Positions 1 through 64,000 of a DNA stretch of 64,000 nucleotides are shown one piece after another; positions within the stretch are counted from its first letter, which is position 1; every line of letters starts with the position of its first letter. The DNA is from an uncultured Clostridia bacterium. Lineage in GTDB: Bacteria > Bacillota > Clostridia > Oscillospirales > JAAYOS01. The translations under genes and the position numbers were made by a program. Below the pieces are notes generated by a model that was given only the letters and a program-made list of their open reading frames with translations, did not search any database and had not been told where the DNA came from. The stretch is from assembly GCA_947631015.1 (NCBI GenBank), contig CANRJS010000008.1, positions 1-64,000 of the forward strand. The letters run 5' to 3'.

Positions 1-9
1 AAAGCGCGC

Positions 10-2200: not shown

Positions 2201-2595
2201 GGCCGCCGGACAAGGCCTGGCCTTGCCGGCGGCGCACGCTCCGCGAGAGGTGTAAATTTCGCCGTACACGCCGCCGAAATTTATCGATTTGACTCTATTT
2301 CGCCGCTTACGCGGCGAAACTCTGCGAGGCTTTGGCGAACAGCGGCACTTCGCGCCGTCCGCTCTATAAAGCAATCAAAGTTGGGCAATATTCGCGGAGC
2401 GAATATTGCGGGCGAAAGCAGTAGAGTGTCGGATGAAGAATCGGTTCGCGCTTTCGCTGTTCGCAGCGGTGAAGTTAGCGGCGCAGCCGCTAACTTTGCG
2501 GAGCCCCGATTCACTCGGGGCGAGCATTTTAATTTAAGAGTTCCCAAACGGCGCAAAGCGCCGTTTGGGACTTGGCGAAACTCTGCGAGGCGCGA
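2201..2595. repeat. Modular multi-hairpin intergenic island, copy R1
   Basis: Contains module A (2202-2233), GTACAC-loop hairpin, CTCTGCGAGGC linker, H5 (aatattcgc/gcgaatatt), H4 (2412-2457), H3, H2 and H1 shared with the other islands. Confidence 0.85.
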
Positions 2596-4863: not shown

Positions 4864-4892
4864 TTGACAAACCGGCGCCGGTTCTTTATAAT
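4864..4892 (+). promoter_or_regulatory. Promoter TTGACA-17-TATAAT with a palindrome filling the spacer
   Basis: aaccggcgccggtt (4870-4883) is a perfect 14-bp palindrome between the hexamers. Confidence 0.65.
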
Positions 4893-4971
4893 TGATTTGT
4901 GATTTGAGGGTATGCGGAGCGCCGCCGGGCGCGGCGTTCCGCAGCCGGAGAGACTACGGGGGTGCGGAGAT

Positions 4972-5355
4972 ATGGTAGAGGTCGCGGCGGCGCTCATCTG
5001 GGACGGAGACCGCTTCATGATATGCAGACGGCCGGCGCACAAGGCGCGCGGACTTCTGTGGGAGTTCGTCGGAGGAAAGCGGGAGGCGGGAGAGACGCTT
5101 CCGGAGGCGCTCGTGCGCGAATGCCGCGAGGAGCTGGACGTCCTCGTCGGCGTGGACGACGTCTTTATGGAGGTGACGCACGAGTACCCGGACATCACGG
5201 TGCGCCTGACCCTCTTCAACGCGCGGATACTCGAGGGCGAACCGAAGCTGCTCGAGCACTGCGACCTCCGCTGGATCACCCCGGCGGAGATAAAGGACTA
5301 TGAGTTCTGCCCGGCGGACGAGGACATCCTGCGCCGCATAGAGAGCATGAACTAG
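4972..5355 (+). CDS. NUDIX hydrolase (8-oxo-dGTP diphosphatase-like)
   Basis: Nudix box GGKREAGETLPEALVRECREELDV. Confidence 0.88.
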   Translation: MVEVAAALIWDGDRFMICRRPAHKARGLLWEFVGGKREAGETLPEALVRECREELDVLVGVDDVFMEVTHEYPDITVRLTLFNARILEGEPKLLEHCDLRWITPAEIKDYEFCPADEDILRRIESMN

Positions 5356-5459: not shown

Positions 5460-5548
5460 GGAGAGGTATCGAAGTGGTCATAACGGGGCTGACTCGAAAT
5501 CAGTTTGCAGGAAACTGCACGTGGGTTCGAATCCCACCCTCTCCGCCA
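5460..5548 (+). tRNA. tRNA-Ser (anticodon CGA)
   Basis: ggagagg...cctctcc acceptor with encoded CCA; anticodon loop ctCGAaa; long variable arm; ggttcgaatcc T arm. Confidence 0.95.
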
Positions 5549-5745: not shown

Positions 5746-6648
5746 TTAAAACGGCGTGGTCGGCTTGAAATCTATCACCCGGGGCTGCTTCTTTCCGGCG
5801 AAGCGGCGGTCGGGGTCGTAGCTCATGTTGAAGCTCTTGCCGTCGGCACGTTCGATGGGGCTCGCGCCGTGACGCGCGGCATATATGACCTTCTGCCCGA
5901 AAAGTCCGACGCTCTCCTCGCGGTCGTCGCTCCCGGAAAGCACCCTCGCCGCAAGCTCGATGCCCTCGTCGATTATGCCGGACGTAAACACCTGATGGCC
6001 GCCGTAGCACATATCAAATTCGGGCTGGAAATGCTTCAGATGCAGCAGATTCTTCAGATATGTATCCACAGGGAGGGCGTTGCCGAAGTCGAGCAGCGTG
6101 TTGCCGTTGCAGGCGTCGCCGGTGAAGGCGATGCGAAGCGCGCGGTCGACAAAGACGACGCTGCCGGGTGAGTGTCCGCCCACGTCCACAACCTCGATTT
6201 GGCGGTCGCCGAGGTCGAGCAGGTCACCGTCGTAGAGCGGATAGACCTTCATATCCCGCGCCGCACAGAAGTCGGAGACCTCCATGGCGGCCTTGTACTC
6301 GTCCTTCGCTTCTTCTCGGGCGCGCTCGAGCATCTGCTCGGGCGTGCTTACGCGGGAATCGTAGAAGGCGGCGATGTCCGCGTGGTGCATATAGCAGCGG
6401 TCGAAGTCGAAGTTCCCGGCGGTGTGGTCGAAGTGGAAATGCGTATTGACGAGCCGCAGCGGCTTGTCCGTGAGAGTTTCGCAAAATGCCTTCAGATTGC
6501 CGTAGCCGTACATCGTGTCGATGACGAGCGCCGCCTCGCTTCCCTCCACCAGATAGCAGTAGACGTGCTCCCGGTCGGTGAAGTTGTACTCTATCTGCCA
6601 GGCGCGGTGTGCGATTTCCTTTGCTTTGAAATAAGGTACGTTGGACAT
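5746..6648 (-). CDS. MBL-fold metallo-hydrolase
   Basis: NTHFHFDHTAGN metal motif, GGHSPGSVVF, FTGDAC. Confidence 0.9.
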   Translation of the reverse strand: MSNVPYFKAKEIAHRAWQIEYNFTDREHVYCYLVEGSEAALVIDTMYGYGNLKAFCETLTDKPLRLVNTHFHFDHTAGNFDFDRCYMHHADIAAFYDSRVSTPEQMLERAREEAKDEYKAAMEVSDFCAARDMKVYPLYDGDLLDLGDRQIEVVDVGGHSPGSVVFVDRALRIAFTGDACNGNTLLDFGNALPVDTYLKNLLHLKHFQPEFDMCYGGHQVFTSGIIDEGIELAARVLSGSDDREESVGLFGQKVIYAARHGASPIERADGKSFNMSYDPDRRFAGKKQPRVIDFKPTTPF

Positions 6649-6704: not shown

Positions 6705-9362
6705 TCACTTTATAAAGAGCTTCACCGCGCCGACGATGCCCTCCGGACGCACCGCGTCGGGCACGCCGCCCATCGAGAAGCCCTCCGGCAGGTGCATCGC
6801 GAGCACCTTGCGGTTCGGGGTGGCGGCGACCTCTATGCGCAGGCTGTTCTTTCCGGGCTTTGCCGCCGCCGTGAGGTCGAAGACCCACTCCGGCGCGATG
6901 CGCGCGCCGCAGGGAACGCCGTTCAGCCACACCTCTGTGCCGTCCGAGACATAGTCGAGCTTCAGCACGACCTGACGCGCGTCGTCCAGCTCGAACTCCG
7001 TCTCGTAGCGGTAAAAGTCCATGAACTCCGGGTAGTTCGCGGCGACGTCCACGCACCGCTCGAGCTCCACGGTCTTGCCGAAGTTCGGGTACTCAGTGGC
7101 GGGGCAGGAGGACAGCCGGAAGCCGGTGAGCTCCGTTTCTTTCCCTTCGGGACGTACCTCCGGGGCGAGAGCGCCGGTATACTCGCCGAAGAACACGATG
7201 AGCGGTTCGTAGGCGCGTATCGTCACGCGGAGCTCGCTCACACCGTCGCGCACCGTCTGCCTGGCGGCGTGCACCTCGTTGCGGTACGCGTCGTAGATAT
7301 ACGCCTTCCCGGTGTTGGGGAAGGTCACAACGCCCTCATAGGGCTTGCCGAGGTCGTTGTTTACGAGCATATACAGGTCGTCCTCGTGGCGGTAGTGGTA
7401 ATACTTCACGGAGCGGGAGGCGGGGCTTATCGCTATATCGCCTATCCCCTTGCCGCGCAGTACGGATACGAGATTTTCGAGCGCCACGACCTCTCCCACG
7501 GCCGTGACCTTCCGCCCGTCCTTGACCGCCTGCGGCAGCACGTCTATAAAGAGCACCGGGAAGCCTGCCGACTTTGCCCTTTCGGAGAAGTCCGCGAGCG
7601 CGGGAGAGGTATAGTCGGTCGCGGGAACAACGAGCGCCTTGTAGGTGACGCCGTTTGCCGTGAGGACGCCGTCCCCGAGCTCGGAGCCGTCTTCGAGCAG
7701 GTCAATGGGTATTATATCGTAGTCTATCTGGTTCTGCCCGAGCTCCTTTGCGGGCGTCTCGCAGAACATCCTGTGCGTGACGCCGGCGTGCTCGCTTACC
7801 CAGTCGCTTTCGGCGTTGTAGAGCACGGCGGCCTCGACCGAGTGTTTTCCGCCGTTCAGCAGGTGGCAGACACGCTGCATGTACCGCATCAGCCTTGCGA
7901 AGTGGCGGTACTGCGCGTTCTCGCCGTGGGCGTAGAAGTGGGGCGGACAGTCGGGGTCGGGGAACGCTTTGGGCGAGAATGCGTGCGGGACAAAGTAGTT
8001 GACGCCGTTTACAAGGAAGTTGTCGGCGAGGTACTTCATCTTGTCCACGCCGAAGTCCCAGCCGGTCGCGCCGAATATCTCGCACATGGCGCGGCCGCGC
8101 TTGTGCGGGTCGAAGGACGCGTGGCTCGAGGCAAACTTTCCGAGCACGTAGTAGTAGAAGTCCGCCCCGCCGTGACTGTCGGCGGCGCGGCGATCCGACC
8201 ACGGCTTCATCTGATTGCTGAAAACTATGTCCACGCCGCCCATGTGGTTGCCGTGCATGGCGCGGAAGTAGTGACCGAGGCCGCCGCCGAGCGCGGGCGA
8301 GAGGTGCGCGTCCTCCCAGATATGGCCGATGTACTCGACCCCGTGCTCCTCGCACCAGCGGCTGAGCTGCCCCGCAAAGTTCTTCTCGATAAGCCGGGTC
8401 ACGGCGTCCATATACGCCTGCCGCACGGCGACTGTCTGCTCGTCCGTGCCGTCGCCCCAGAGGAGGCCGAGGAACATCTTCCACTCGCCGCCGAGCCTCT
8501 CTTCAAGCATCGCGGGCAGGTCCTTCTGCCACGGGTTAGTGAGCTTGCGTTCGCCGCCGAGCTGCCCCGTCGCGTACATCCCCGCGATGTTGCCGACCAT
8601 CGGCTCGTCGGAAAAGAAACCCCTTATCGTCCCGCCGAAGTCCGCGCCGTAACGGGCATAGTGCGGCTCGTACACACGGTCTATGAGTACCCGCACACTG
8701 TCCCCGTCCAGAATATTTATGTAGTCGGTGCGACCCTCGCCGTTGTGGGTGAGGAAGGTGACATAGATTCGGTAGGAGCCGTTAGGAACGTCCCACACGA
8801 GCACGCCGTCCCGCACGAAGGAGCTCACGTCTGTATAGCCGACCATGCGGCCGCTTTCGTCCAGCTCCCACGCGGCGACGCTCAGTATCTCAACGTCGTT
8901 CTCGAAGTGCAGCTTCTGTCCGCCGCGGAGCATCATCGCCTGACGCGGGTCGTTCGAGGGCGCGGTGGCCTTCTCTATCGCGCCCGCTATGTCGAAACGG
9001 TTTGCCGGGGAGGGACCGTAGCAGTCCGCCGCCACGCTCTCCACATACCACGGGCGGAGGGAGATGTCCGCGTCCTCTATGCCGCCGTTCGCGTGACCGG
9101 TGGGGAAGTGGTCGTCGTCAAGTATCCAGACCGTCATGCCCCGCTTTTTGGCCTCGTCGAGAATGACGTCCAGATCCTCCCACCACTTTGGGCCGCAGAA
9201 ATCCGGGTGCGGCCTGCACTCGACGCACATCGCCAGGATGTTCGCCTCATAGATGGCGCGGACGTAGTCCCGGAGCGTCGCCTCGTCCTCGCCGTGCTGC
9301 CAGAAGAAGGGCAGGATGTAGCTTCCGCCCTTTCCGGCGAGCAGTTCGTCTATCCTTTTCAT
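6705..9362 (-). CDS. Large glycoside hydrolase (GH106/GH2-like; rhamnosidase-type suspected)
   Basis: YILPFFWQHGEDEATLRDYVRAIYEANILAMCVECRPHPDF...; C-terminal sugar-binding beta domain LDYVSDGTEVWLNGVPCG; start trimmed to 9362. Confidence 0.65.
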   Translation of the reverse strand: MKRIDELLAGKGGSYILPFFWQHGEDEATLRDYVRAIYEANILAMCVECRPHPDFCGPKWWEDLDVILDEAKKRGMTVWILDDDHFPTGHANGGIEDADISLRPWYVESVAADCYGPSPANRFDIAGAIEKATAPSNDPRQAMMLRGGQKLHFENDVEILSVAAWELDESGRMVGYTDVSSFVRDGVLVWDVPNGSYRIYVTFLTHNGEGRTDYINILDGDSVRVLIDRVYEPHYARYGADFGGTIRGFFSDEPMVGNIAGMYATGQLGGERKLTNPWQKDLPAMLEERLGGEWKMFLGLLWGDGTDEQTVAVRQAYMDAVTRLIEKNFAGQLSRWCEEHGVEYIGHIWEDAHLSPALGGGLGHYFRAMHGNHMGGVDIVFSNQMKPWSDRRAADSHGGADFYYYVLGKFASSHASFDPHKRGRAMCEIFGATGWDFGVDKMKYLADNFLVNGVNYFVPHAFSPKAFPDPDCPPHFYAHGENAQYRHFARLMRYMQRVCHLLNGGKHSVEAAVLYNAESDWVSEHAGVTHRMFCETPAKELGQNQIDYDIIPIDLLEDGSELGDGVLTANGVTYKALVVPATDYTSPALADFSERAKSAGFPVLFIDVLPQAVKDGRKVTAVGEVVALENLVSVLRGKGIGDIAISPASRSVKYYHYRHEDDLYMLVNNDLGKPYEGVVTFPNTGKAYIYDAYRNEVHAARQTVRDGVSELRVTIRAYEPLIVFFGEYTGALAPEVRPEGKETELTGFRLSSCPATEYPNFGKTVELERCVDVAANYPEFMDFYRYETEFELDDARQVVLKLDYVSDGTEVWLNGVPCGARIAPEWVFDLTAAAKPGKNSLRIEVAATPNRKVLAMHLPEGFSMGGVPDAVRPEGIVGAVKLFIK

Positions 9363-25541: not shown

Positions 25542-26201
25542 ATGGTCTCGAAAAAGTGGATAACCTGTGCCTGCACGGTGCTGCTCGTGGTGCTTCTGCT
25601 CGCCGGCGGCGCGGCTATAGCGGCGGAGCTCGGCGGCGCGGACGACCCTCTCGTTTCGCTGAGCTACATAGAGCAGCTCATCCCGCAGCTCAATGACAAC
25701 ATCGAGAAGATAATAGGCCAGAAGGTAGACGAGTTCGACCAGTCCATCGACGAAAAGATAGCGCAGGTCGACCAATCGATAAACGACAAGATAAGCCGCT
25801 TTGAGGAGCAGTACGCCGCGGGCTTTGCCGATGAGGACTTCATCAACCGCGTTGCGGACGCGATAGCGTCGCGCGGAGTATCCGGCGGCACGACCGCGCC
25901 GGGCGGCGAGACGCCGTCCGCGCCGTCCGCCGGTACGACCGATTCCTTCACCGTCGTGGACGTGAGCGCCGGGCAGAAGCTCATAGGAGCGGTCGGCACC
26001 GAGATACTGTGGCGCATAGGCACCGCAAGCTGTGTCGCACCCGGCTCGCCCGGACTTATCGACATATCCTCCGGCGCGGATCTCGCCGCCGGCGGACAGC
26101 TCCAGCAGAACCACGTCTATGTCGTGACCGTCGCGGAGCGCGGCTTCCAGGCCACATCCAACTGCAAGGTGCTTATAAAGGGAACGTATACGATACAATA
26201 G
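25542..26201 (+). CDS. Secreted/anchored coiled-coil protein of unknown function
   Basis: N-terminal TM, heptad-like DEFDQSIDEKIAQVDQSINDKISRFEE, Thr/Pro-rich linker, C-terminal beta domain. Confidence 0.6.
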   Translation: MVSKKWITCACTVLLVVLLLAGGAAIAAELGGADDPLVSLSYIEQLIPQLNDNIEKIIGQKVDEFDQSIDEKIAQVDQSINDKISRFEEQYAAGFADEDFINRVADAIASRGVSGGTTAPGGETPSAPSAGTTDSFTVVDVSAGQKLIGAVGTEILWRIGTASCVAPGSPGLIDISSGADLAAGGQLQQNHVYVVTVAERGFQATSNCKVLIKGTYTIQ

Positions 26202-26258
26202 TCGTTACAAATAAGTAAGGGCGCGGATTTCATCCGCGCCCTTACTTATTTGTAACGA
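26202..26258 (+). terminator. Perfect 26-bp-arm palindrome immediately after the stop codon
   Basis: tcgttacaaataagtaagggcgcgga-tttca-tccgcgcccttacttatttgtaacga. Confidence 0.65.
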
Positions 26259-26650
26259 AGCCGCCGGACAGAGCGGAGCTCTGCCGGCGGCGGGCGCTCC
26301 GCTACGCAATTCCCACGCGGTCGGCGACCGCGTGGGAGCCCTTCCAATTGAAATGCTCGGGGCGAGTGAATCGCCCCTGCGCAAAGTTGCTTGCCATAGG
26401 CAAGCAACTTTAACCGCGCGAACCGGCGCGGGCGCCGCCTGCGGCGCTTCGAAGCGCGCTCCGCGCAAAGTATTTTCGGCGACGTACACGCCGCCGCCGA
26501 AAATAGATTAAACCTTATTCGCCGCCTTCGGCGGCGAACTCTGCGCGGCTTTTGCCGGGATGTCGGCGTGAAACGCCGTTTGGGGTTCTGATGCGCCCGG
26601 TAAAAAGTTTCGACGCGTAGCAAGTCGAGGGGCGCATTCTCTGCGCGGCT
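26259..26650. repeat. Modular multi-hairpin intergenic island, copy R2
   Basis: Module A (26260-26291), H1 (from 26311), ATTGAAATGCTCG linker, H2, H3, GTACAC-loop hairpin, CTCTGCGCGGC linker, H4 (26591-26637). Confidence 0.88.
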
Positions 26651-26658
26651 ATGACAAA

Positions 26659-26686
26659 CGCGCGCCGGAATTTTTTCCGGCGCGCG
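26659..26686 (-). terminator. Terminator hairpin of vanZ-like gene
   Basis: cgcgcgccggaa-tttt-ttccggcgcgcg. Confidence 0.65.
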
Positions 26687-26700
26687 CTTGTTGTAAGCTT

Positions 26701-27318
26701 CTATTTGGACGGAGATGCTTTCCCACGCACTCTCCGCACTGCTGCTGCTGCAACAGCCTTCGCCGCAAAGAAGCCGCAGACGATGCCGGCGAAGTTCAAT
26801 ATGAGGTCGTCGACGTCAAAACTGCGTCCCACGGCGAGCTGCACCGTCTCGACCGCGAGCGGCACGAGCGCCGCCACGGCGAAGATGCTTCTGCCCGTCA
26901 CCCTGTCCGTCACGAACGGCAGGAACGCGCCGAGGGGCAGGAACATAAGGAAGTTGCCGACAAGCATCTCCGTCACCCAGCCGCCGAGCCCCGAATACTC
27001 TCCCGTGAGGAGACGCACAAGCGCCGGGACAAGGTTTATCCCGCCGGAGAAGGGCGGCGGAGAGCCGTATTCGAAGCTTCCGGTGCGCAGGAAGTACAGT
27101 ATGTCGCCCCAGAGGTTCTGCGGCGCGAGGACGAGCGCCGCGAGCCCCGCGAGGTAGCACACAAAGAGCAGACGCACGACTTCGCGTCCCCACGCGGGCG
27201 GACGATTCCAATGGAGCGCGGCGGCGCGGCAGACCGCGTACACAAGTCCCACAAGAAGCGCCGGCGGCACGGCCTGTAAAAATCTGCCGAACGTGCCGGA
27301 GGTCATAAGCTCGTACAT
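26701..27318 (-). CDS. VanZ-like family membrane protein
   Basis: NLVPALVRLL...NFLMFLPLGAFLPF...ETVQLAVGRSFDVDDLILNFAGIVCG VanZ motifs; start trimmed to MYELM. Confidence 0.85.
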   Translation of the reverse strand: MYELMTSGTFGRFLQAVPPALLVGLVYAVCRAAALHWNRPPAWGREVVRLLFVCYLAGLAALVLAPQNLWGDILYFLRTGSFEYGSPPPFSGGINLVPALVRLLTGEYSGLGGWVTEMLVGNFLMFLPLGAFLPFVTDRVTGRSIFAVAALVPLAVETVQLAVGRSFDVDDLILNFAGIVCGFFAAKAVAAAAVRRVRGKASPSK

Positions 27319-27322
27319 GTCG

Positions 27323-27383
27323 ATCCCCTCTCCGAAAAGCCGTGTGTAGAACAATCATACACGGCGCGGAGAGGGGATGTCAA
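27323..27383 (-). promoter_or_regulatory. vanZ promoter (TTGACA-18-TATGAT) embedded in a long inverted repeat
   Basis: ATCCCCTCTCC (27323-27333) and GGAGAGGGGAT (27368-27378) plus an inner GCCGTGT(g)TA/TACACGGC pair flank the -10 at 27354-27359. Confidence 0.65.
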
Positions 27384-27416
27384 TTAAGAGAGTATTAAAT
27401 CCGCGTGGGAACCGGG

Positions 27417-27956
27417 TCAGAGCCCGATAAAGAGCGCGACGGCGGCAAGGATGACGAGGTCGCCGGGCTTGCCGTCCTCCAAAAAGAGCAGCACGAGGAT
27501 GAGCAGCAGAATGACGTCGCCGAGGTCGAGACCTCCGAGTAAGCCGCTGTCGCCGAACAGCCTGCCGGAGATGCCGCGAAGCGCGGCGAGTATGCCGCCG
27601 TCCCGCGCAGGAGACGAGGCGGCGACGGCGTCCGCGCCTCCCGCTTCGCTCCCCGCGAGTGACGCGCCAGCGCCGACCTCCCCGCCGCCGCGCGGCGCGC
27701 CGGAGGCGTCCCCGCAGTGGGAAAACTCCCCGGCGGAGACGGACGTCTCGCGGGGAAGGCCGCCGGCCCCGAGACCGTCTCGCGCCTCCGCAAAGTCCGG
27801 GAAGGCGGAGTCGCGGACAAGCGCCGTGCCGGAATAGCCGTCCGGGACGGAAACAAAGTCTCCGCCGGGAGCGTCCTGCCCGCCGCCCTCCGCGTCGAGC
27901 GGGCGGAACACGGAGCGTCCCGTGGGGTCATATCTTGAGTACATCGCCTTTGTCAC
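27417..27956 (-). CDS. Hypothetical protein, acidic/Gly-rich with hydrophobic C-terminus
   Basis: ILAALRGISGRLFGDSGLLGGLDLGDVILLLILVLLFLEDGKPGDLVILAAVALFIGL; start overlaps the upstream gene. Confidence 0.55.
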   Translation of the reverse strand: MTKAMYSRYDPTGRSVFRPLDAEGGGQDAPGGDFVSVPDGYSGTALVRDSAFPDFAEARDGLGAGGLPRETSVSAGEFSHCGDASGAPRGGGEVGAGASLAGSEAGGADAVAASSPARDGGILAALRGISGRLFGDSGLLGGLDLGDVILLLILVLLFLEDGKPGDLVILAAVALFIGL

Positions 27957-28572
27957 CTCCGGAAAGGGAATTTATCGCCGCGCGTACTGCGGTGCTCACT
28001 TTAAGTATTCGGACGGCGCGGTCGACGCGCTCCGCCTTCTCGCGGCGGAGAAGCGGCTTCAGCGCGAGGAGCAGACGCGTGCGGTCGTCGTCCGTGCCGA
28101 CCGCGCCGAGGACCTGCGCCGCTGTCGCGAGCAGCTTCGGGTCGAGCGCAGGCGGGGAGGACGGCGCTTCACGGCGTCCCCCGCCCGCCGCGCCGAGAAG
28201 CGCCGACAGGGTGCCGGAAGCGCTCGCGCTCTCCCCGGACCTTGCGGGGGACGGCGACGCGGCCCCGCCGAGAAGCCCCATGAGTGCGGAGAGCGCGTCG
28301 CCGGACGCCGCGCTGCGGGACGTGTCGTCGCCGCCGGGCAGTCCCGCGGGCGCCGATGCGGGGATGCTTTCGCCGTCGGACGAGGACGCCGCCGGTGCGG
28401 AGCCGCTGCCCGGAATGGCGCCGTCCGGCATGGCCGTGTCCGACCCTCCGTCGGACGAGGCAGGCGCAGCCTCCGGCGACGGGGCGCGGGAAAGAAGCTC
28501 CCCGGCGAGCTTTGCCGCCGCCGCGAGCAGCTCCGGCGAGGAGAGTATCCCGTCGAGTATGTTGGGATCCAT
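27928..28572 (-). CDS. Hypothetical protein, same operon
   Basis: MDPNILDGILSSPELLAAAAKLAGELL... low-complexity middle... LLLALKPLLRREKAERVDRAVRILKVS. Confidence 0.55.
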   Translation of the reverse strand: MDPNILDGILSSPELLAAAAKLAGELLSRAPSPEAAPASSDGGSDTAMPDGAIPGSGSAPAASSSDGESIPASAPAGLPGGDDTSRSAASGDALSALMGLLGGAASPSPARSGESASASGTLSALLGAAGGGRREAPSSPPALDPKLLATAAQVLGAVGTDDDRTRLLLALKPLLRREKAERVDRAVRILKVSTAVRAAINSLSGGDKGDVLKI

Positions 28573-28585
28573 CCCGTGCCTCCCT

Positions 28586-28861
28586 TCAGCCGAGCAGACC
28601 GACGAGCGTCATGGCGAGCTTCGCCCCTTCGGGGGTGCTCATGAGCGTGCTGACGAGCTTTGCGGCGCTGTCGCGGTCGCCTCCGGCGGCGGCGCGCGCC
28701 GCCTCCTTGAGAGCGTCGCCTCCCGCGCCGCCGAGCTGGCTGAGGAGCGCCTGACCCTCCGCGCTCGCGGCGAAATTTTTCAGCTTATCCATGTTCCCGG
28801 CCACCCGTGCGCCCTGAGGCGTGGAAAGAAGCGCGCGTAAGAGATTTTCGGATTTATCCAT
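28586..28861 (-). CDS. Small hypothetical protein, first gene of operon
   Basis: Internal repeat LLSTPQGARVAGNM ... LMSTPEGAKLAMTL; RBS-like ggaggtgc upstream on the minus strand. Confidence 0.6.
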   Translation of the reverse strand: MDKSENLLRALLSTPQGARVAGNMDKLKNFAASAEGQALLSQLGGAGGDALKEAARAAAGGDRDSAAKLVSTLMSTPEGAKLAMTLVGLLG

Positions 28862-28967
28862 GCTGCACCTCCGCTTGTTTTTGTTTCGATAGAGTATATG
28901 CCGCGCGCCGCCGCGCGGTGCGCGAAAAGGGTGTGATAGTTGCTACAGGGTATTTTTGCCGGCAGGA

Positions 28968-28996
28968 TTGCATTTTGTCAAAAAGTGTGATAATAT
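28968..28996 (+). promoter_or_regulatory. Promoter TTGCAT-17-TAATAT
   Basis: Extended -10 (TGaTAATAT); predicted start site falls at the first base pair of the leader RNA. Confidence 0.6.
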
Positions 28997-29000
28997 GTAA

Positions 29001-29176
29001 CTGCCACACAAATCTATATTGCCAATGGTATACCTGTGCCTGTTTGAGGGAAAATAACTGCGGTAAAAACGCGGGTCCTTACTTCTTCCTCTTTACAGGC
29101 ATAGAAGATTTGTGTGGCAACAAATGGGGCCATGCGTTTTTCGGTGTGTGGTTCCGTTTGGACCACACACTTTTTT
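29001..29176 (+). ncRNA. Structured leader/small RNA ending in an intrinsic terminator
   Basis: Perfect outer pair TGCCACACAAATCT (29002-29015)/AGATTTGTGTGGCA (29106-29119), inner TGCCTGT (29037-29043)/ACAGGCA (29095-29101), then GTGTGTGGTTCC..GGACCACACAC-TTTTTT (29144-29176). Confidence 0.65.
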
Positions 29177-29190
29177 ATGGAGGCAAAAAT

Positions 29191-30147
29191 ATGACCAAAA
29201 ATGAGATTAGAGACTATCTGGGAATGTTGGTAGATTTGGAGAGGGAGCATTTCATGCAGACCAATCTTATTGCCACCCTTCAAGATCGTATTTCGAGGTT
29301 GGGCCATCCGGGGCAGATTGATGAGCCGGTCATGGCAATGCCTCGAGGAGAAGAAACAGATTGGGATAATCTTGCAGTGGCTATTGTTTTGGGAGGAATT
29401 CTGGGTGGTATTTTAGGAATTGCCACAGCAAACGGCTTCTTTAGTGCAATAGGTAATGCCCTGAAGGGAGCTCTCTGTGGCGCTGTTATTTGCGGAGTTC
29501 TTTATGCGCTGTATAAGGCAATCGTTTATTACGCAACCTATCAAGAGGATAAAACGGCAAAAGACGCAGACTACCAGAAAAGGCACATTGCGTACGAGAA
29601 TGCGTTAATGGAAGATGAGAAACGACTTCAGCGGGAACACAACGCTTTAATTTATCTGAATCAAGAGCTCAAAAATCTGATGGAATGCTATAACCATACA
29701 AACGATGTCTTGGATAAAATGTATGGTGTAAATGTTATTTACAAAAAATACCATCACAACTTTGCGGCGGTGTCTTCATTTTATGAGTATTTCTGTTCCG
29801 GTATGGTTAATTCTCTCGAAGGTCCTGACGGGGCATACAGCCGATTGGAATATGAAATACGACTTGACATAATCTCTATTAAGCTTGATATTCTGATAAG
29901 ACAGCTGGATGATATAAAGCAAAATCAGTTTATGCTGTATTCTGCCATAACAGAGGCTAATGCAAAGTTGGATTCTATAGTCAGTTCATGCAGCAAAATT
30001 GAAGCCGGTGTACAAAATCTTCAGATTCAGGGGAACGAACTGAACGAGCGTATCGCGGGTTTGCAGGCCACATCGGATTTAAATCTCTATATTAACGCCC
30101 TCAACCACGAGGAACTTGACTTTATGCGGCGAATGGGCGTTCGCTAA
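29191..30147 (+). CDS. Membrane-anchored coiled-coil protein of unknown function (AT-rich accessory gene)
   Basis: Two hydrophobic segments (LAVAIVLGGILGGILGIATA; GALCGAVICGVLYALYKAIVYYA) then a long helical region; RBS tggagg; composition clearly different from neighbours. Confidence 0.75.
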   Translation: MTKNEIRDYLGMLVDLEREHFMQTNLIATLQDRISRLGHPGQIDEPVMAMPRGEETDWDNLAVAIVLGGILGGILGIATANGFFSAIGNALKGALCGAVICGVLYALYKAIVYYATYQEDKTAKDADYQKRHIAYENALMEDEKRLQREHNALIYLNQELKNLMECYNHTNDVLDKMYGVNVIYKKYHHNFAAVSSFYEYFCSGMVNSLEGPDGAYSRLEYEIRLDIISIKLDILIRQLDDIKQNQFMLYSAITEANAKLDSIVSSCSKIEAGVQNLQIQGNELNERIAGLQATSDLNLYINALNHEELDFMRRMGVR

Positions 30148-30380
30148 AGGCGTATTTATCGCCTATGTGGAGTATAATGACAAAAGCTATTATGTTTATA
30201 TACATAACTTATGAAAAAATGCGGAAATTTCATACAAATCAGCTCATTGCAAAACACAGAACACATGGTTCCGCAAAGCTGCTTGATGGTTTTGGCATAT
30301 CCTCGCCCCGGGACGTTGCAACGCCGCGTCCTGGGGCGTATCTTACGTCTCAAAGCGTATTCCGGACGTCGTACGACGGC

Positions 30381-30409
30381 TTGTTTTTTCCCCCGGACTA
30401 TGCTATAAT
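30381..30409 (+). promoter_or_regulatory. Promoter TTGTTT-17-TATAAT
   Basis: Extended -10 TGcTATAAT, upstream of the methyltransferase. Confidence 0.55.
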
Positions 30410-30466
30410 ACCGATACTGCACCGGCGGAGGCAAAATGCCGCCGCAGACTACGGGAGGGGAGAAGG

Positions 30467-31210
30467 ATGGGCTACACCGCGCTCTACACGGTATACGACA
30501 GGTTCACGCGCGACGTGGACTATCCGGCGCTCGCGCGTTACGTCGCGGAGCTGCTGCGGCGGAACGGCGTTGCGGACGGCATCCTTCTCGACCTAGCCTG
30601 CGGAACGGGCACGCTCTCGCTCGAACTTGCGGGGATGGGCTTTGACGTGATAGGCGCGGACAGCTCGGAGGAAATGCTCTCCGAGGCGTGGAACAAGCTG
30701 TGGAATATGGAGACCCCGCCCGACCCGCCGCCGCAGTTTATATGCCAGGATATGCGGCGGCTCGACCTCTTCGGAACGGTAAGGGCCTGCGTGTCCACGC
30801 AGGATTCTATGAACCATGTGACCGAGCCGGACGAGCTTTCGGAGGTTTTCCGCCGCGTCAGCCTCTTTACCGAGCCGGGAGGGGTGTTCGTGTTTGATAT
30901 GAACACGCCCGCGCGCTTTGCCGCCATGGACGGCGAAGCCTACGTGGACGAGGACGAAAACGCGCTCTGCATCTGGAGAGTGGCGGGAGACGGCGGCGGG
31001 CTCTACGAGTACACGGTGGACGTTTTCCTGCGGGAAAAACGGCTCTGGCGGCGCGTAAGCGAGGTGTTTTTCGAGCGCGCCTACGAGCCGCAAACGGTGC
31101 TCGATATGCTGAAAAACGCCGGCTTTGCGTCGGCGGAGACGTTCGGGGAGCGGAGCTTCGATGCGCCCGCGCCGGACGAGAAAAGAATATTTTTTGTGGC
31201 GAGGAAATAA
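30467..31210 (+). CDS. Class I SAM-dependent methyltransferase
   Basis: LLDLACGTGTLSLELA motif I; QDMRRLDL; GVFVFDMNTP. Confidence 0.88.
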   Translation: MGYTALYTVYDRFTRDVDYPALARYVAELLRRNGVADGILLDLACGTGTLSLELAGMGFDVIGADSSEEMLSEAWNKLWNMETPPDPPPQFICQDMRRLDLFGTVRACVSTQDSMNHVTEPDELSEVFRRVSLFTEPGGVFVFDMNTPARFAAMDGEAYVDEDENALCIWRVAGDGGGLYEYTVDVFLREKRLWRRVSEVFFERAYEPQTVLDMLKNAGFASAETFGERSFDAPAPDEKRIFFVARK

Positions 31211-31211
31211 G

Positions 31212-32093
31212 ATGGGCAAGACAGTAAGGATGATTTCGTCGGACGGATTTATCTCCGCCTGCGCCGTGGACGCTACGGACATCGTCGCGCGCGCCCACGA
31301 GATACACGGCACGAGCGCGACGGCTTCCGCCGCGCTCGGGAGGGTGCTCGCCGTCACGTCGCTCATCGGCGGCGGGATAAAGGTGGACGGCGGCTCGGTG
31401 ACCGTCCGCTTCAACGGGAACGGCGCGGGTGGAAGGATAATAGCCGTCGCGGAGTGCGACGGCTCGGTGCGCGGCTGCGTGGACAACCCTCACGTCGACC
31501 TGCCCCGCCGTCCGGACGGCAAGCTCGACGTCGGCGGCTTCATAGGTCATGAGGGCTCGCTTACCGTCGTGAAGGATCTGCGCATGCGCGACCCTTACGT
31601 CGGCATGGTCGAGATAGTCGGCGGTGAGGTCGCGGAGGATGTCGCGGCGTACTTCGTCGAGAGCGAGCAGATACCCACCGCCTGCGCGGCGGGCGTGCTC
31701 GTCGCGGGGGACGGGGCGATAGTCTCCGCCGGAGCGTACCTCGTCCAGCTGCTCCCCGGAGCGCCGGAGGAGTTTGCGGAGAAGCTCGAGGGCGCGGTCA
31801 TGCGCGCGGGGACTGTCACACAGCTCCTCGGCGCGGGCAGCGGCCCGGAGGAGATACTTGAAAAGCTCCTCGAGGGCTTTGAGCCGAGAAAGCTCGAGGA
31901 GTACGACGCGGTATACCGCTGCGGGTGCAGCCTCGAACGCGTCGAGCGCGCGCTCATCTCGAGCGGCAAGAAAGCGCTCGAGGAGATGATAGCCGAGGGA
32001 CACGGCGCGGAGGTCTCCTGCCAGTTCTGCGACAGGGTATACCGCTTCACCACGGAAAACCTCACGGAGCTGCTGAAGAAAGCGACAAACTGA
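31212..32093 (+). CDS. hslO: Hsp33 redox-regulated chaperonin
   Basis: C-terminal zinc site CGCS...CQFC, N-terminal Hsp33 fold motifs. Confidence 0.94.
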   Translation: MGKTVRMISSDGFISACAVDATDIVARAHEIHGTSATASAALGRVLAVTSLIGGGIKVDGGSVTVRFNGNGAGGRIIAVAECDGSVRGCVDNPHVDLPRRPDGKLDVGGFIGHEGSLTVVKDLRMRDPYVGMVEIVGGEVAEDVAAYFVESEQIPTACAAGVLVAGDGAIVSAGAYLVQLLPGAPEEFAEKLEGAVMRAGTVTQLLGAGSGPEEILEKLLEGFEPRKLEEYDAVYRCGCSLERVERALISSGKKALEEMIAEGHGAEVSCQFCDRVYRFTTENLTELLKKATN

Positions 32094-32159
32094 CGGCTAT
32101 GGAAACAACTCTGATAAGTCCGCCGAGCCTTCGGCGGACGCTTGCGGGAGGTGAGCGGC

Positions 32160-33101
32160 GTGTCGGAAAAACCGAATAGGCTCGGGCTGCGGCGCTTCCC
32201 GGACGTGCCGGCGAGCCGCGAGCACACGACCGGCATAGAGCGCCTTGACACATGGCTTTTGGGTCACAGAAGGGCGAGAGAAGTATTCGGCTTTGTGTTC
32301 CGGGTGCTGAGAGACAACCTGATAGGCACCGCCGCGCAGACGGCGTTTTTCCTGCTGCTCGCCATCTTCCCGATACTCATGCTTGTGGCAGGGTGGCTCT
32401 CGAGAATGCCGTTCGCGTTCGACACAGGTCTGCTCTCGGCGATATTCCCCGAGTCGGTCGCGTCTACCCTGCAGGAGGTCATGGAGCACGCTCCGAGCTC
32501 GACCGGATACACCGTCGTGCAGATAGCGCTGTCGGTCTGGTCGGCGTCGGCGGGAATATGGGCGCTGATGCGCGGTATCTGCATATCACACACCGGCAGG
32601 ACGCCGAACTACTTCAAGGGACGGATAATTTCGGTGCTGCTGATGGTGGGCTTTGTCGCGATGATAGCGCTGAGCCTCGTCGTCTGGGTGTTCGGCCGCG
32701 ACATAGTGAGCTACATCGCGGGCGGGGACTGGCAGAGCGGCGACGTTGTGGTCTCGGTGGCGCGGTACGCCTTCACGCTGCCGCTGCTGTTCCTCTTTGT
32801 GCTCGTGATGTACGCCGCGACGCCGGGCTTCCGCCTCGAGATGCGGCAGACGGCGATAGGCGCGGCGATAGCCGCCGTGAGCTGGACGCTCGTCAGCCGT
32901 GGCTTCGAGGCGTATATGAGCACGTTTTCGCGCTACTCCGCGCTGTACGGCGGCGTCGGCGCGTTCCTCGGACTTGCGGTGTGGCTGCTCGTCGTCTGCT
33001 TCGTGATAATGTTCGGCGCGGAAGTGAACGCGTATATCGCCGAGACCGCCGCGCTCCGCGCGGCGCTCACGACGGAGCTCAGACCGCCGGACAAGGCGTA
33101 G
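32160..33101 (+). CDS. YihY/BrkB family membrane protein
   Basis: Multiple TM segments, NLIGTAAQTAFFLLLAIFPILM; GTG start after gggaggtgagc. Confidence 0.85.
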   Translation: MSEKPNRLGLRRFPDVPASREHTTGIERLDTWLLGHRRAREVFGFVFRVLRDNLIGTAAQTAFFLLLAIFPILMLVAGWLSRMPFAFDTGLLSAIFPESVASTLQEVMEHAPSSTGYTVVQIALSVWSASAGIWALMRGICISHTGRTPNYFKGRIISVLLMVGFVAMIALSLVVWVFGRDIVSYIAGGDWQSGDVVVSVARYAFTLPLLFLFVLVMYAATPGFRLEMRQTAIGAAIAAVSWTLVSRGFEAYMSTFSRYSALYGGVGAFLGLAVWLLVVCFVIMFGAEVNAYIAETAALRAALTTELRPPDKA

Positions 33102-33485
33102 ATATTCACGGCAAATCGCGCTCGCTTCGCTCGCTTACCAATTTGCCGCGAAGCCGCCGGACAAGGCGCAGCCTTGCCGGCGGCAAGCGCTCCGCTACGC
33201 GTCGATTTTCCGCCTGCGGCGGAAAATCGACGCATTCCCACGCGGTCGGCGACCGCGTGGGAGCCCTTCCGATTGAAATGCTCGCCGGAAATGAATTCCG
33301 GCTCCTTAAAGTTGCTTGCCCGAGGCAAGCAACTTTAACCGTTGCGAACCGCGAGGGCTCGAACCAATTTCTCATCCGACATTTTACAGCCCTCGCTTGC
33401 AATATTCGCTTTGCGAATATTGCCCGACATTGAGCTAAATAAAAGGCGGAACCGCCTTTGGCGGCGAACTCTGCGAGGCTTTTGG
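33102..33485. repeat. Modular multi-hairpin intergenic island, copy R3
   Basis: Module A (33153-33184), cgattttccgc/gcggaaaatcg, H1 (from 33236), ATTGAAATGCTCG linker, H2, H3, H4 (33351-33396), H5, CTCTGCGAGGC linker. Confidence 0.88.
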
Positions 33486-33494
33486 GAAAAGCGA

Positions 33495-33526
33495 GGCGGA
33501 CGGTACATCTGTACCGTCCGCCTTTT
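33495..33526. terminator. Intrinsic terminator hairpin
   Basis: ggcggacggtac-atct-gtaccgtccgcc-tttt. Confidence 0.75.
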
Positions 33527-45233: not shown

Positions 45234-46456
45234 TGCGTAAGGTCGAGCTTCTGAGTCCCGCGGGGGACATGTCCAAGCTGAAGATGGCGCTCGCCTACGG
45301 CGCGGACGCGGTGTACCTCGCGGCGGACAGGTACGGTATGCGCGCCGCCGCGGGCAACTTCCGCGAGGAGACTCTTGCGGAGGCGGCGCGCCTCGCTCAC
45401 GCCGCCGGCGCGCGGGCGTACATCACGATAAACACCGTCGCACACGAGGACGAGCTCGAGGGAGCGGCGCGCCTCGCGCGCATAGCGGAGGAGAGCGGGC
45501 TCGACGCGGCGATAGTCGCGGACGCGGGCGTGCTCGGCCTCGTGAAGCGCGCCGCGCCGTCGCTTGAGGTACACATGTCCACGCAGGCGGGCATCACGAA
45601 CAGCGCGTCCGCGCGGATGTGGCACGACCTCGGCGCGAAGCGCGTTATACTCGCGCGCGAGCTCACCTTGGACGAGATAGCGTCGATACGCGCGAACACG
45701 CCGCGCGAGCTCGAGCTTGAGGTGTTCGTCCACGGCGCGATGTGCGTCAGCTTCTCGGGGCGCTGCCTCCTCTCGGAGTACATGGCGGGCAGAGACGGAA
45801 ACCGCGGCGAGTGCGCGCAGCCCTGCCGATGGCGCTACCACCTCGTCGAGGAGAGCCGCCCCGGCGAATATTACGAGATGCAGGAGCATCCCGAGGGGAC
45901 ATATATCCTCAACTCGAAGGACCTCAACGCGATACGCCTCCTTGACAGGATAATCGAGGCCGGCGCGTCGAGCCTCAAGATAGAGGGACGCTCGAAGAGC
46001 GAATACTATGCCGCCGCCGTCACCTACGCCTATCGCGGCGCGCTAGACGACCTGTACGCCGGGCGTCCGTTCGACGAACGGTGGGAGGAGGAGCTGGGAA
46101 AGGTCAGCCACCGGCCGTACTGCGACGGGTTCTTCCGCGAGCGGCCGAAGCACGGACTTCAGTACACCGGCGACTCGCGGTATATACGCGACTGGGAGGT
46201 CGCGGCGGTGGTGGAGCGTGTCGAGGGAGAGTATGCCTTCGTGTCGCTGAAGAACCCGTTCGGGGAGGACGAGGAGCTGGAGCTTCTCTCACCCGGACGC
46301 CGCCCCGAGAAGGTGCGCGTCCGCGAGATATACGAGCTCGGCGCGGACGGCGCTGAGACGCGCGTCACGCGCGCGACAAAGAACCAGCTGACGCACCGTC
46401 TGCTCCTGCCGGACGTAAAGCCGCAGGCAATACTTCGAAAAAGTCGCGAGAAATAG
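45230..46456 (+). CDS. U32 family peptidase (TrhP/YegQ-like tRNA hydroxylation protein)
   Basis: ELLSPAGDMSKLKMALAYGADAVY; VHGAMCVSFSGRCLLSEYMAGRDGNRGECAQPCRW. Confidence 0.93.
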   Translation: MMRKVELLSPAGDMSKLKMALAYGADAVYLAADRYGMRAAAGNFREETLAEAARLAHAAGARAYITINTVAHEDELEGAARLARIAEESGLDAAIVADAGVLGLVKRAAPSLEVHMSTQAGITNSASARMWHDLGAKRVILARELTLDEIASIRANTPRELELEVFVHGAMCVSFSGRCLLSEYMAGRDGNRGECAQPCRWRYHLVEESRPGEYYEMQEHPEGTYILNSKDLNAIRLLDRIIEAGASSLKIEGRSKSEYYAAAVTYAYRGALDDLYAGRPFDERWEEELGKVSHRPYCDGFFRERPKHGLQYTGDSRYIRDWEVAAVVERVEGEYAFVSLKNPFGEDEELELLSPGRRPEKVRVREIYELGADGAETRVTRATKNQLTHRLLLPDVKPQAILRKSREK

Positions 46457-46486
46457 GTTGCGGGCGAAGCCCGCAACCTATTTCTC
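46448..46486 (+). terminator. Perfect palindrome overlapping the stop codon
   Basis: gagaaataggttgcgggc-gaa-gcccgcaacctatttctc. Confidence 0.65.
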
Positions 46487-46700
46487 ACGAGGAGTTCACT
46501 TGGAATTGCGCCTGCGCAATTCCAAGTGAAGCTGTCGATAGGGCAAAGCCCTACCGACAGCGGGCGCTCCGCTACGCGCCTCGACGGCTTCGACGTCTTC
46601 GACGCGCGCTCCGCGAGAGGTATTTTCGGTGACGTACACACCGTCGCCGAAAATGATTTGAATTTATTTCGCGCCTGCGGCGCGAAACTCTGCGAGGCTT
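46487..46700. repeat. Modular multi-hairpin intergenic island, copy R4
   Basis: ttcacttggaattgcg/cgcaattccaagtgaa; module A variant (46531-46561); GTACAC-loop hairpin; tttcgcgcc/ggcgcgaaa + CTCTGCGAGGCTT. Confidence 0.82.
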
Positions 46701-47647: not shown

Positions 47648-48184
47648 TATTCGCTGACGCGTCGGCGCGAAATGTGCTCGGGCAATGAATTGCCCTGCGC
47701 AACCCCACGCGGTCGGCGACCGCGCGGGAGCCCTTCCTATTTATATGCTCGCCCTGAATGAATCGGGGCTCCGCAAATTCGGCGTTTTGCGCCGAATTTG
47801 ACCGCGCGAACCGGCGTGGAGTACGGCTTTGCCGTCTTCGACGCACGCTCCGCGCAGTACAAGGTCGGGACGTCGGCGCGAAGCGCCGAGGTCTGATGCG
47901 CCCGGTAAAAGGTTGGAAGCGGTATGGGTTCGAGGGCGCATTGTACACGCCGTCGGAAAAACGGATTTGACTCTATTTCGTGCCTGCGGCGCGAAACTTT
48001 GCGAGGCTAACGCGAAGTTTCACAGTTGCGCGCATAGCGCGCATCCGCGCCGGTTCGCGCGGTTGAAGTTAGCGGCGGAGCCGCTAACTTCGCGCAGCCG
48101 GAATCCATTTCCGGCGAGCATTTCAATCAAAGGGGTCCCCAAGCGGCGTGAAACGCCGCTTGGGACTTAACTATGCGAGGCTTG
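47648..48184. repeat. Modular multi-hairpin intergenic island, copy R5
   Basis: H1-linker-H2-H3 forward (about 47704-47800), H4 (47896-47941), CTTTGCGAGGC linker, then H3-H2-linker-H1 again in reverse orientation (about 48060-48168). Confidence 0.85.
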
Positions 48185-60362: not shown

Positions 60363-61020
60363 GGGGCCGTCGGACAAGGCAAAGCCTTGCCGACGGCAAC
60401 ACTCCGCTATGCGCCGATTTTTCCGCCTGCGGCGGAAAAATCGACGCATTCCCGCGCGGTCGCCGACCGCGTGGGAGCCCTTTTAATTGAAATGCTCGTG
60501 CGGAACACGAGGGCGCCGACATATTCCGCATTGGCGCATATTCAGCCCTCGTGAGCTTTACCCGCGAAGCGGGTAAAGCCATACATTGATATAATTCGCC
60601 TGCGCGAAGTTGGCGGCTTTGCCGTGGGCTTCAACCGCTGCGAACCGCGAGGGCGCGAACCCATTCTTCATCCGACATTTTACAGCCCTCGCTCGCAATA
60701 TTCGCTTTGCGAATATTACCCGACATTGAGGTAATTAGAATGCGGAGTACGGCTTCGCCGTCTTCGACGCACGCTCCGCGAGAGGTATTTTTTCCCCGTC
60801 TATTAGCAGAAAGTCGGGACGTCGGCGCGAAGCGCGGTTAAATTCAGCGCACAGCGCTGAATTTGCGGAGGGCAGCCATATCAATGTCCGGCTTTGCCCG
60901 CGAAGCGGGTAAAGCTCACGAGGGCTGAATATGTGCCGATGCGGAATATGTCGGCGCCCTCGTGTTCGGGAGCGAGCATTTCAATCAAAGGGCTCCCAAA
61001 CGGCGCTCTGCGCCGTTTGG
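60363..61020. repeat. Modular multi-hairpin intergenic island, copy R6, with long inverted arms
   Basis: Module A (60366-60397); H1-linker; 60473-60592 is near-identical to the reverse complement of 60879-60997; H4 (60647-60692) and H5 in between. Confidence 0.88.
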
Positions 61021-62592: not shown

Positions 62593-64000
62593 ATGAAACA
62601 AAAACCCAAATACGGTATGTGGGCTGTGCTCCGCTTCATGCACCGGTGCGCGTGGGAGAGCCGGAGAATAGTCCCGTTCCTCGGAATATTTCTCGCCCTG
62701 TTTACAGTGGCGCGGAGCGTCACCGAGCTCTTTCTTGCGCCGGAGATACTTGCCCGCGTGGAGAGCGGCGCGCCGCTCCATGAGCTGCTGGGGACGATAG
62801 GCGTGTTCGTCCTCGCGCTCATAGCGCTCGCCGCCGTTGGCGGCTACGCCAACGTGAACGCGATGTGGCCGCGGATGAACGTCCGTCTGCGCGTCATGCG
62901 GCTGTGTACGGACAAGTCGGGGGAGATGAGCTATCCGCTCACCTCCGACCCGGAGGTTCTGAAGCTGCGGCAGGCGGCGACCATGACGCTGAACAACAAC
63001 ATCTCCGCCGCCGAGAATATATGGGTGACGCTCGAGGAGCTCACAAGAAACATCGCGGGATTTGTCCTCTATCTCTTTATCATGCGGAGCCTGCATCCGC
63101 TGCTCATCGCGGCGGTTCTCGCGGCGACGGTGCTGAGCTTCCTTGCCGCGCGCCGCGCGCAGGAGCTGAATTACGCCGACCGGGACGAGAGGAACAGGCA
63201 GGAAAACCGTGCGGAATACATCACCTCCGTCGCAAACGACGTCACGACTGCAAAGGACATCCGCATTTTCGGCCTCGCCCCGTGGCTGAAGGAGGTGCGG
63301 GAGGACGTCATCCGCGCCATAGACGCGCTCGCCGTGAAGCGCGAGGAGCGGCTGTTCTTCGCAAACCTCGCGGACGCCCTTCTCAGCATGGCGCGGAACG
63401 GCTTTGCTTACTTTATACTCATCAACATGGCGCTCGCGGGCGAGCTCTCCGCGCCGGAATTTCTGCTCTACTTCACGGCGGTGAGCGGCTTTACTAACTG
63501 GGTCACCGGCATCATGGACAAGTTCGCGACGCTCCGCCGCGAGTGCATGGAGCTGTCCCAGACGATGGAGTTTATCAATTTGCCCGAGCCCTTCCGCTTT
63601 GAGGGTGGGAAAGCCATCCCCGAGAGGAAGCACTCCGGGCGCGAGCTGCGCCTCGAGCACGTCAGCTTCCGGTACCCCGGGGCGGAGTGGGACACGCTGC
63701 ACGACGTGGACCTCACGCTCCGGCCCGGCGAAAAGCTCGCGATAGTCGGCCTCAACGGCGCGGGCAAGACGACGCTTGTGAAGCTGCTCTGCGGCTTCCT
63801 CGACCCGACGGAGGGGCGTATCCTCATGGACGGCAAGGACATCCGCGAGTTCGACAGGCGGGAGTATTACTCGCTGTTCAGCGCGGTTTTTCAGGAGTTT
63901 TCGGTGCTCGACGTCACCGTCGCGGAGAACGTCGCACAGTCGGCGGACGGCGTCGATACGGAGCGCGTGCGCGAGTGTGTCGAAAAGGCGGGGCTTTCGG
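62593..64000 (+). CDS. ABC exporter (fused permease + ATP-binding), truncated by window end
   Basis: ATG after ggagagacgaa; TM domain then GLNGAGKTTLVKLLCGFLDPTEG Walker A; no stop before 64000 so absent from the ORF track. Confidence 0.88.
   Translation, partial: MKQKPKYGMWAVLRFMHRCAWESRRIVPFLGIFLALFTVARSVTELFLAPEILARVESGAPLHELLGTIGVFVLALIALAAVGGYANVNAMWPRMNVRLRVMRLCTDKSGEMSYPLTSDPEVLKLRQAATMTLNNNISAAENIWVTLEELTRNIAGFVLYLFIMRSLHPLLIAAVLAATVLSFLAARRAQELNYADRDERNRQENRAEYITSVANDVTTAKDIRIFGLAPWLKEVREDVIRAIDALAVKREERLFFANLADALLSMARNGFAYFILINMALAGELSAPEFLLYFTAVSGFTNWVTGIMDKFATLRRECMELSQTMEFINLPEPFRFEGGKAIPERKHSGRELRLEHVSFRYPGAEWDTLHDVDLTLRPGEKLAIVGLNGAGKTTLVKLLCGFLDPTEGRILMDGKDIREFDRREYYSLFSAVFQEFSVLDVTVAENVAQSADGVDTERVRECVEKAGLS

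Follow-up and report, generated by a model that had tools for sequence, protein, structure and literature searches.

The mosaic palindromic repeats of bacteria have mostly been left as being of 'origin unknown'. The BOX element of Streptococcus pneumoniae, assembled from boxA, boxB and boxC, is modular, intergenic, strongly structured and present in high copy (PMC3049150). Its host range is narrow, it has no transposase of its own and its present-day movement is slow (PMC3049150). REP sequences are tagged palindromes of 20-40 bp that form the mosaics known as BIMEs and the REPINs associated with RAYT (PMC3733652). IS1549 and IS1634 are elements of 1.5-2 kb with a DDE transposase (PMC2266710). 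Finally, template switching is a mutational process whose products are perfect stems with compensatory changes and inverted loops (PMC8794818).

Here, we describe a family of hairpin units in the 1.89 Mb genome (G000) of an uncultured Clostridia bacterium of the order Oscillospirales. The window is the stretch of 64,000 nucleotides at positions 1 to 64,000 of contig CANRJS010000008.1. It was compared with sequence surrounding islands, and with the sites collinear to them, in four genus-mates (G001-G004) and other genomes. The intergenic islands are likely to be accumulated short, non-coding, foldable mobile DNA, with a core of about 120 bp that is probably a non-autonomous element inserting at gene ends.

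Hairpin islands of the window

Repeat coverage picks out exactly six islands in the window, all of them real, in agreement with the earlier note, which had listed six regions built from one kit of hairpins. Reading of the sequence together with hairpin parsing finds the same modules in all six, and all are non-coding. Weak coverage is also seen at 366-567 (maximum cover 12) and 63746-63783 (maximum cover 6). The statement that no open reading frame spans the islands needs rewording: mechanical frames do cross them (for example 26246-26623 on the minus strand), but they show no sign of coding. The islands (listed without strand) and their H units, the latter with covariance-model scores, are as follows.

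2153-2595: island R1; T hairpin (2153-2201), hairpin A with bulged A (2202-2233), GTACAC-loop hairpin E (2253-2283), hairpin F (2298-2319) with CTCTGCGAGGCTT, then a minus-strand H unit
2454-2573, minus strand: H unit in R1; cmsearch 110.3 bits (model R1), 75.5 bits (model R2)
26202-26658: island R2, the anchor of the earlier note; T (26202-26258), A (26260-26291), H unit, E (26471-26505), F (26518-26538)
26308-26428, plus strand: H unit in R2; 128.6 bits (model R1), 107.7 bits (model R2, the window's top score)
33104-33484: island R3; T-like hairpin, A (33153-33184), D, H unit, H4 (33351-33396), H5 (33399-33423), F
33233-33354, plus strand: H unit in R3; 114.2 bits
46442-46707: island R4, in which the covariance-model search of the window found no H unit; T (46448-46486), hairpin X (46495-46530), A (46531-46561), E (46622-46654), F (46667-46687)
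47652-48170: island R5; two oppositely oriented H units
47700-47816, plus strand: H unit in R5; 104.6 bits
48048-48168, minus strand: H unit in R5; 134.0 bits
60313-61031: island R6, between a divergent gene pair; two interrupted H units, with a longer insert in the H2 slot
60447-60650, plus strand: interrupted H unit in R6; 75.4 bits
60826-61025, minus strand: interrupted H unit in R6; 66.9 bits

Independent gene calls reproduce the earlier tally of three convergent, two tandem and one divergent gap. The sole divergent island, R6, has outward-facing promoter-like sequences on either side, so that both promoters seem to be spared.

The shared plan comprises a long T hairpin (perfect, 18-28 bp) adjoining the upstream stop codon, hairpin A with its bulged A, the linker GCTCCGCTACGC, an optional D, the GTACAC-loop hairpin E, hairpin F and CTCTGCGAGGCTT. 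Block H, consisting of H1, linker, H2 and H3 and at times H4 and H5, can be present on either strand. A similar module order had been proposed; the shared modules hold up, with the correction that they are found on both strands. The core unit of about 120 bp contains hairpin H1, the linker GCCCTTnnnATTGAAATGCTC, a 7-bp hairpin H2 around ATGAA, hairpin H3 and a GC-rich hairpin. The evidence for mobility concerns this H unit, and A, D, E and F are companion modules.

Gene-end duplications and inverted tails

A direct duplication flanks 32 of 46 distant copies (that is, copies from other families), compared with one of 46 control flanks. The duplications are 24-116 bp long and 78-100% identical, and in nearly all duplicated distant copies the left duplicate abuts H1 exactly. 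The duplicated segment is a gene terminus, usually that of a conserved gene, namely the 3' end in 26 cases in which the frame could be resolved and the 5' end in three. Judging by the terminal peptides, we take the 3' ends to include those of lepA, eno and alaS, and the 5' ends to be those of two uvrC-like genes and one hisS-like gene. Measured from the stop codon, the outer end of the duplication falls between -1 and +5 nt in 17 of the 26 cases and between -7 and +9 nt in 22. The gene remains intact thanks to the duplicate that is joined to its body.

Copies of this kind are also present in the window's own genus. At locus L151 a 123-bp unit is accompanied by a 49-bp duplication that is 100% identical and ends six bases past the stop codon, at L154 the duplication is 127 bp long with 98% identity, and L101, L062 and L090 carry duplications similar to that of L151. 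No gene-end duplication was found at the window's own six islands. Solo copies of about 120 bp with gene-end duplications, both in other families and in the own genus, speak for the 'palindromic MITE-like mobile family' that had been one of the options put forward earlier. Like a MITE, the family is short, non-coding, multi-copy and dispersed. It is not an ordinary MITE, since no transposase was found and the duplications are long and variable instead of having a fixed length.

Duplications that are 100% identical (L227, L239, L254 and L301) imply recent insertion. At L181, and at L293 together with L299, the unit plus gene end is repeated in tandem, which suggests a route by which arrays grow. 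Between functional and displaced duplicates there are 74 synonymous and 5 non-synonymous codon differences. This bias is not predicted by simple insertion followed by decay and looks as if both copies were selected. Three insertions at the presumed lepA, in three genera, have sites a few bases apart and cores that are just 51-63% alike. As a separate observation, the flanks of two loci in G000 (L027 and L191) duplicate a sequence resembling a tRNA 3' end, for example GCGGTTCGATTCCGTTAGTGTCCACCA.

The 3' tail of the element, about 13 nt, is the reverse complement of its own insertion junction in 24 of 30 distant copies (score of at least 9); typically, 5-9 nt of it correspond to the gene side of the junction and 6 nt to the duplicated side. 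With another copy's junction as control this is seen in none of the 30, the score never exceeding 8. L297 and L305 are further loci with an inverted tail, and ten units inspected in the own genus lack it. It is possible, if somewhat unlikely, that these tails reflect guided insertion. A foldable unit of about 120 nt would then end in a target-complementary segment of about 13 nt and the gene terminus would be remade up to the stop codon, which would make the family a new class of mobile element able to live in essential genes, lepA, eno and alaS among them.

A rival on the mechanism, which is compatible with mobility of the unit, is template switching (microhomology-mediated) during replication: with no dedicated enzyme, the polymerase would leave the gene, copy the hairpin unit and return slightly upstream. 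Variable duplication lengths, the short inverted junction copy, the inverted loops (see below) and the lack of the enzymes tested are all accounted for in this way. We nevertheless regard it as rather unlikely, because it leaves unexplained why the stop codon is usually where the duplication ends, why the tail is regular (-6/+5..9) and why the lepA junctions are similar in three genera.

Improbable in our view is a MITE of a known transposase family that makes long duplications (IS1634/IS1549 type), or else a SINE-like retroelement using a reverse transcriptase. Duplications of variable length are typical of target-primed reverse transcription, which counts in favour of the SINE-like version. 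The MITE version is favoured by the direct repeats of IS1549 and IS1634, which span 8-514 bp (PMC2266710). However, no IS1634 transposase is present in G000-G004, G061, G089 or G139, and reverse transcriptase (PF00078) is absent from G000-G004 and from the carriers G043, G046, G100 and G124. Moreover, no constant terminal inverted repeat was seen at the ends defined by the duplications; the only obvious inverted segment is the junction-derived tail, which follows the target. Either enzyme could possibly have gone undetected or been lost.

Among the carrying genomes, IS1634 transposase is above the cut-off in G126 only, with weak partial matches in G006, G010 and G043. TnpB (PF07282) is above the cut-off only in the carrier G139, and G001 and G004 have two weak matches below it. 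The Y1/RAYT transposase (PF01797) is absent from G000-G004 and present in five of 14 control genomes. As movers, none of these four enzymes accounts for the distribution of the element. On the preferred reading of an element that inserts at gene ends, movement would be active and would presumably require an enzyme acting in trans.

Occurrence among genomes and island turnover

The H1-linker motif has 79 copies in G000 (0 for a reversed control pattern) and 61-77 in three genus-mates, and the fourth, G003, has no linker copies. When 85,462 species genomes were scanned for the exact linker, matches came from three rabbit-gut MAGs only. This suggested a family confined to the genus, a notion that was overturned by covariance-model matches in other families. 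Of 147 genomes from the order, 16 have matches to the model, which covers H1-linker-H2-H3 (about 120 bp). Outside the genus there are up to 20 matches per genome, in another family of the same order, and mostly single copies. A class sample of 341 genomes gave practically no match beyond the order, with one further weak match in G399 (2.3e-4) that we take as chance.

A single linker match lies on a 4 kb contig (L064, G035:C39) in the genome of another family. At the DNA level the contig resembles neither the window nor those genus-mate stretches that were compared with it, and this copy may stem from transfer or contamination. The linker search found nothing in viral contigs, and the distant-family motif gave three real matches in two of them. 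One contig (L276, 8.8 kb) carries H-type elements at 4892-5013 and 8593-8712 and the other (L275) has one at 5794-5922, in each case with no flanking duplication. Such contigs are a possible vehicle for H-type elements between species.

In relatives with 85-96% identical genes the island sites are the same and their contents are exchanged. In particular, the R2 site of G001 (L162, G001:C8) has no island and holds an extra acyltransferase-like gene between two simple hairpins. R3 is remodelled in G001, G002 and G004 and absent in G003, which has only a terminator-like hairpin at that site, and R5 in G001 is without 47705-48017. Across about 64 kb, no site is new in G001, and R2 is missing there. 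Neither a joined-flank search nor this collinear comparison with G001 found a clean empty/filled insertion pair. After rpsR, a lone H1 hairpin in G001 corresponds to a 296-bp array starting with the same hairpin in G000 (L147 versus L193). Between R2 and R3, a 1455-bp segment (28922-30376) has no counterpart at the collinear position in G001, G002 and G004 (gap of 30-160 bp). The open reading frame at 28807-30147 (446 amino acids) has no Pfam or NCBIfam match and a weak PADLOC match to LmuB (E 0.0026).

Divergent promoter gaps are strongly avoided: the 53 classifiable islands are located in 25 convergent, 26 tandem and 2 divergent gaps. This distribution, the perfect T hairpins next to stop codons and the stable sites across about 64 kb could be taken to mean that the islands are host-selected gene-end devices (bidirectional terminators, mRNA-end stabilizers or gyrase/nucleoid sites, as proposed for REP/BIME) that spread by recombination with no mobility of their own. 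This is very doubtful, as the long gene-end duplications and site-complementary tails point to a mobile element, as do the patchy occurrence, with no linker copy in G003, and the copies in viral contigs. A role in termination or in the nucleoid may still apply, given the avoidance of divergent promoter gaps.

Stem covariation, folding and relation to described systems

The stems covary as had been claimed and as expected of a structured element. For 50 H units the score is 0.470, compared with 0.162 +/- 0.009 in shuffles and only 0.05-0.11 in a slid-structure control. Pairing is kept in 98.2% of cells and 25 of 33 pairs show two-sided change. An alignment across other families retains the architecture, with two-sided changes in 20 of 23 predicted pairs. 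The stem of H2 falls into about six discrete variants, all perfectly paired, and the ATGAA loop that they enclose is fixed; hairpin A retains its bulged A in 115 of 120 copies with both stem halves changing. The loops had been described as kept, which is true of some; many triloops, those of H1 and H3 included, vary freely and are present in both orientations, so that only part of the loops is conserved.

An RNA function of one strand predicts many more G.U than A.C mispairs. The observed G.U:A.C ratios are 35:27 for H1-H3 and 27:17 for hairpin A without its edge pair, or 62:44 in total (binomial p 0.10 taken alone), compared with 10:0 in control tRNA acceptor stems from the same loci (Fisher p 0.013). 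The absence of a clear strand bias favours folding as DNA, within the limited power of this test. In six cases, orthologous hairpins have an inverted loop and identical stems, which matches the footprint of template switching (PMC8794818). We infer that the units are more likely to fold as DNA than as RNA. Comparison with Rfam, as proposed earlier, yielded no family at or above its curated score that matches the islands: a curated-score search of the window returned tRNA-Ser at 5460 only, and permissive searches of R6 and of 26200-33520 gave only sub-threshold matches.

A large multi-domain non-coding RNA in each island (or RNA domains of 3'-UTRs), the stems being maintained by RNA-level selection, would suit the strong covariation, the retained bulge of A and the orientation of A and F, which in tandem gaps are mostly co-directional with the flanking genes (11:2 and 11:3), but it is highly improbable given that module order and content are scrambled and replaced between species with such similar genes, that units lie on both strands, that G.U and A.C mispairs are nearly balanced and that Rfam has no match, and the 'large structured RNA' option of the earlier note is accordingly disfavoured.

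Returning to mobile DNA at gene ends, the core unit would insert within or beside a gene terminus and duplicate 24-116 bp of it (127 bp in one own-genus copy) in direct orientation. The gene end would in this way be supplied anew, so that insertion would be tolerated even in essential genes. In other families the inserted copy would usually also end in about 13 nt that are the reverse complement of its junction. Within the window's own genus, units and the companion modules T, A, D, E and F would have piled up at old gene-end sites and been reshuffled through tandem duplication, deletion between repeats and recombination. The stems, perfect yet changing, would reflect a need for a folded DNA strand, aided by template-switch repair of palindromes.

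One family can be traced from islands in which the modules are scrambled to lone copies whose boundaries are visible, and these lone copies show gene-end insertion that spares essential genes, with none of the tested mobility enzymes. Should the tail act as a guide, the family would amount to a small DNA or RNA system that specifies its target; should the tail be a by-product of replication, template switching alone would be able to spread a repeat through a genome. We found no description of the family in the literature, which is weak evidence of novelty as subscription papers were mostly outside the coverage. None of the defining features tested for the REP/RAYT, IS1634-MITE, retroelement and TnpB families was found.

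TnpB reRNA and IscB omega-RNA are structured RNAs that lie beside a guide matching the insertion site. The order of a structured scaffold and then a short junction-complementary segment would be similar here; unlike in TnpB reRNA, the tail is about 13 nt and spans the junction, and a single carrier has TnpB above the cut-off. BOX is alike in being modular, intergenic, structured and of high copy number, with a narrow host range, no transposase of its own and slow movement. We know of no report of gene-end-type duplications for BOX. In contrast to BOX, the present family has such duplications and a tail inverted from the junction, its relatives extend over several families of one order, and by its description BOX differs in sequence and module grammar (PMC3049150). 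REP/BIME and REPINs with RAYT share the short gene-end palindromes clustered in mosaics (PMC3733652), whereas the units here are about 120 bp long, carry direct duplications and occur in a genus without Y1/RAYT. The direct duplications of IS1549 and IS1634 are likewise tens to hundreds of bases long and variable by copy (PMC2266710), but the units here are non-coding and as a rule 115-185 bp long, and IS1634 transposase is missing from nearly all genomes that carry them. Finally, hairpins maintained by template switching show the same compensatory changes, inverted loops and perfect stems (PMC8794818); there they are the result of a mutational process, and here they belong to a family of elements.
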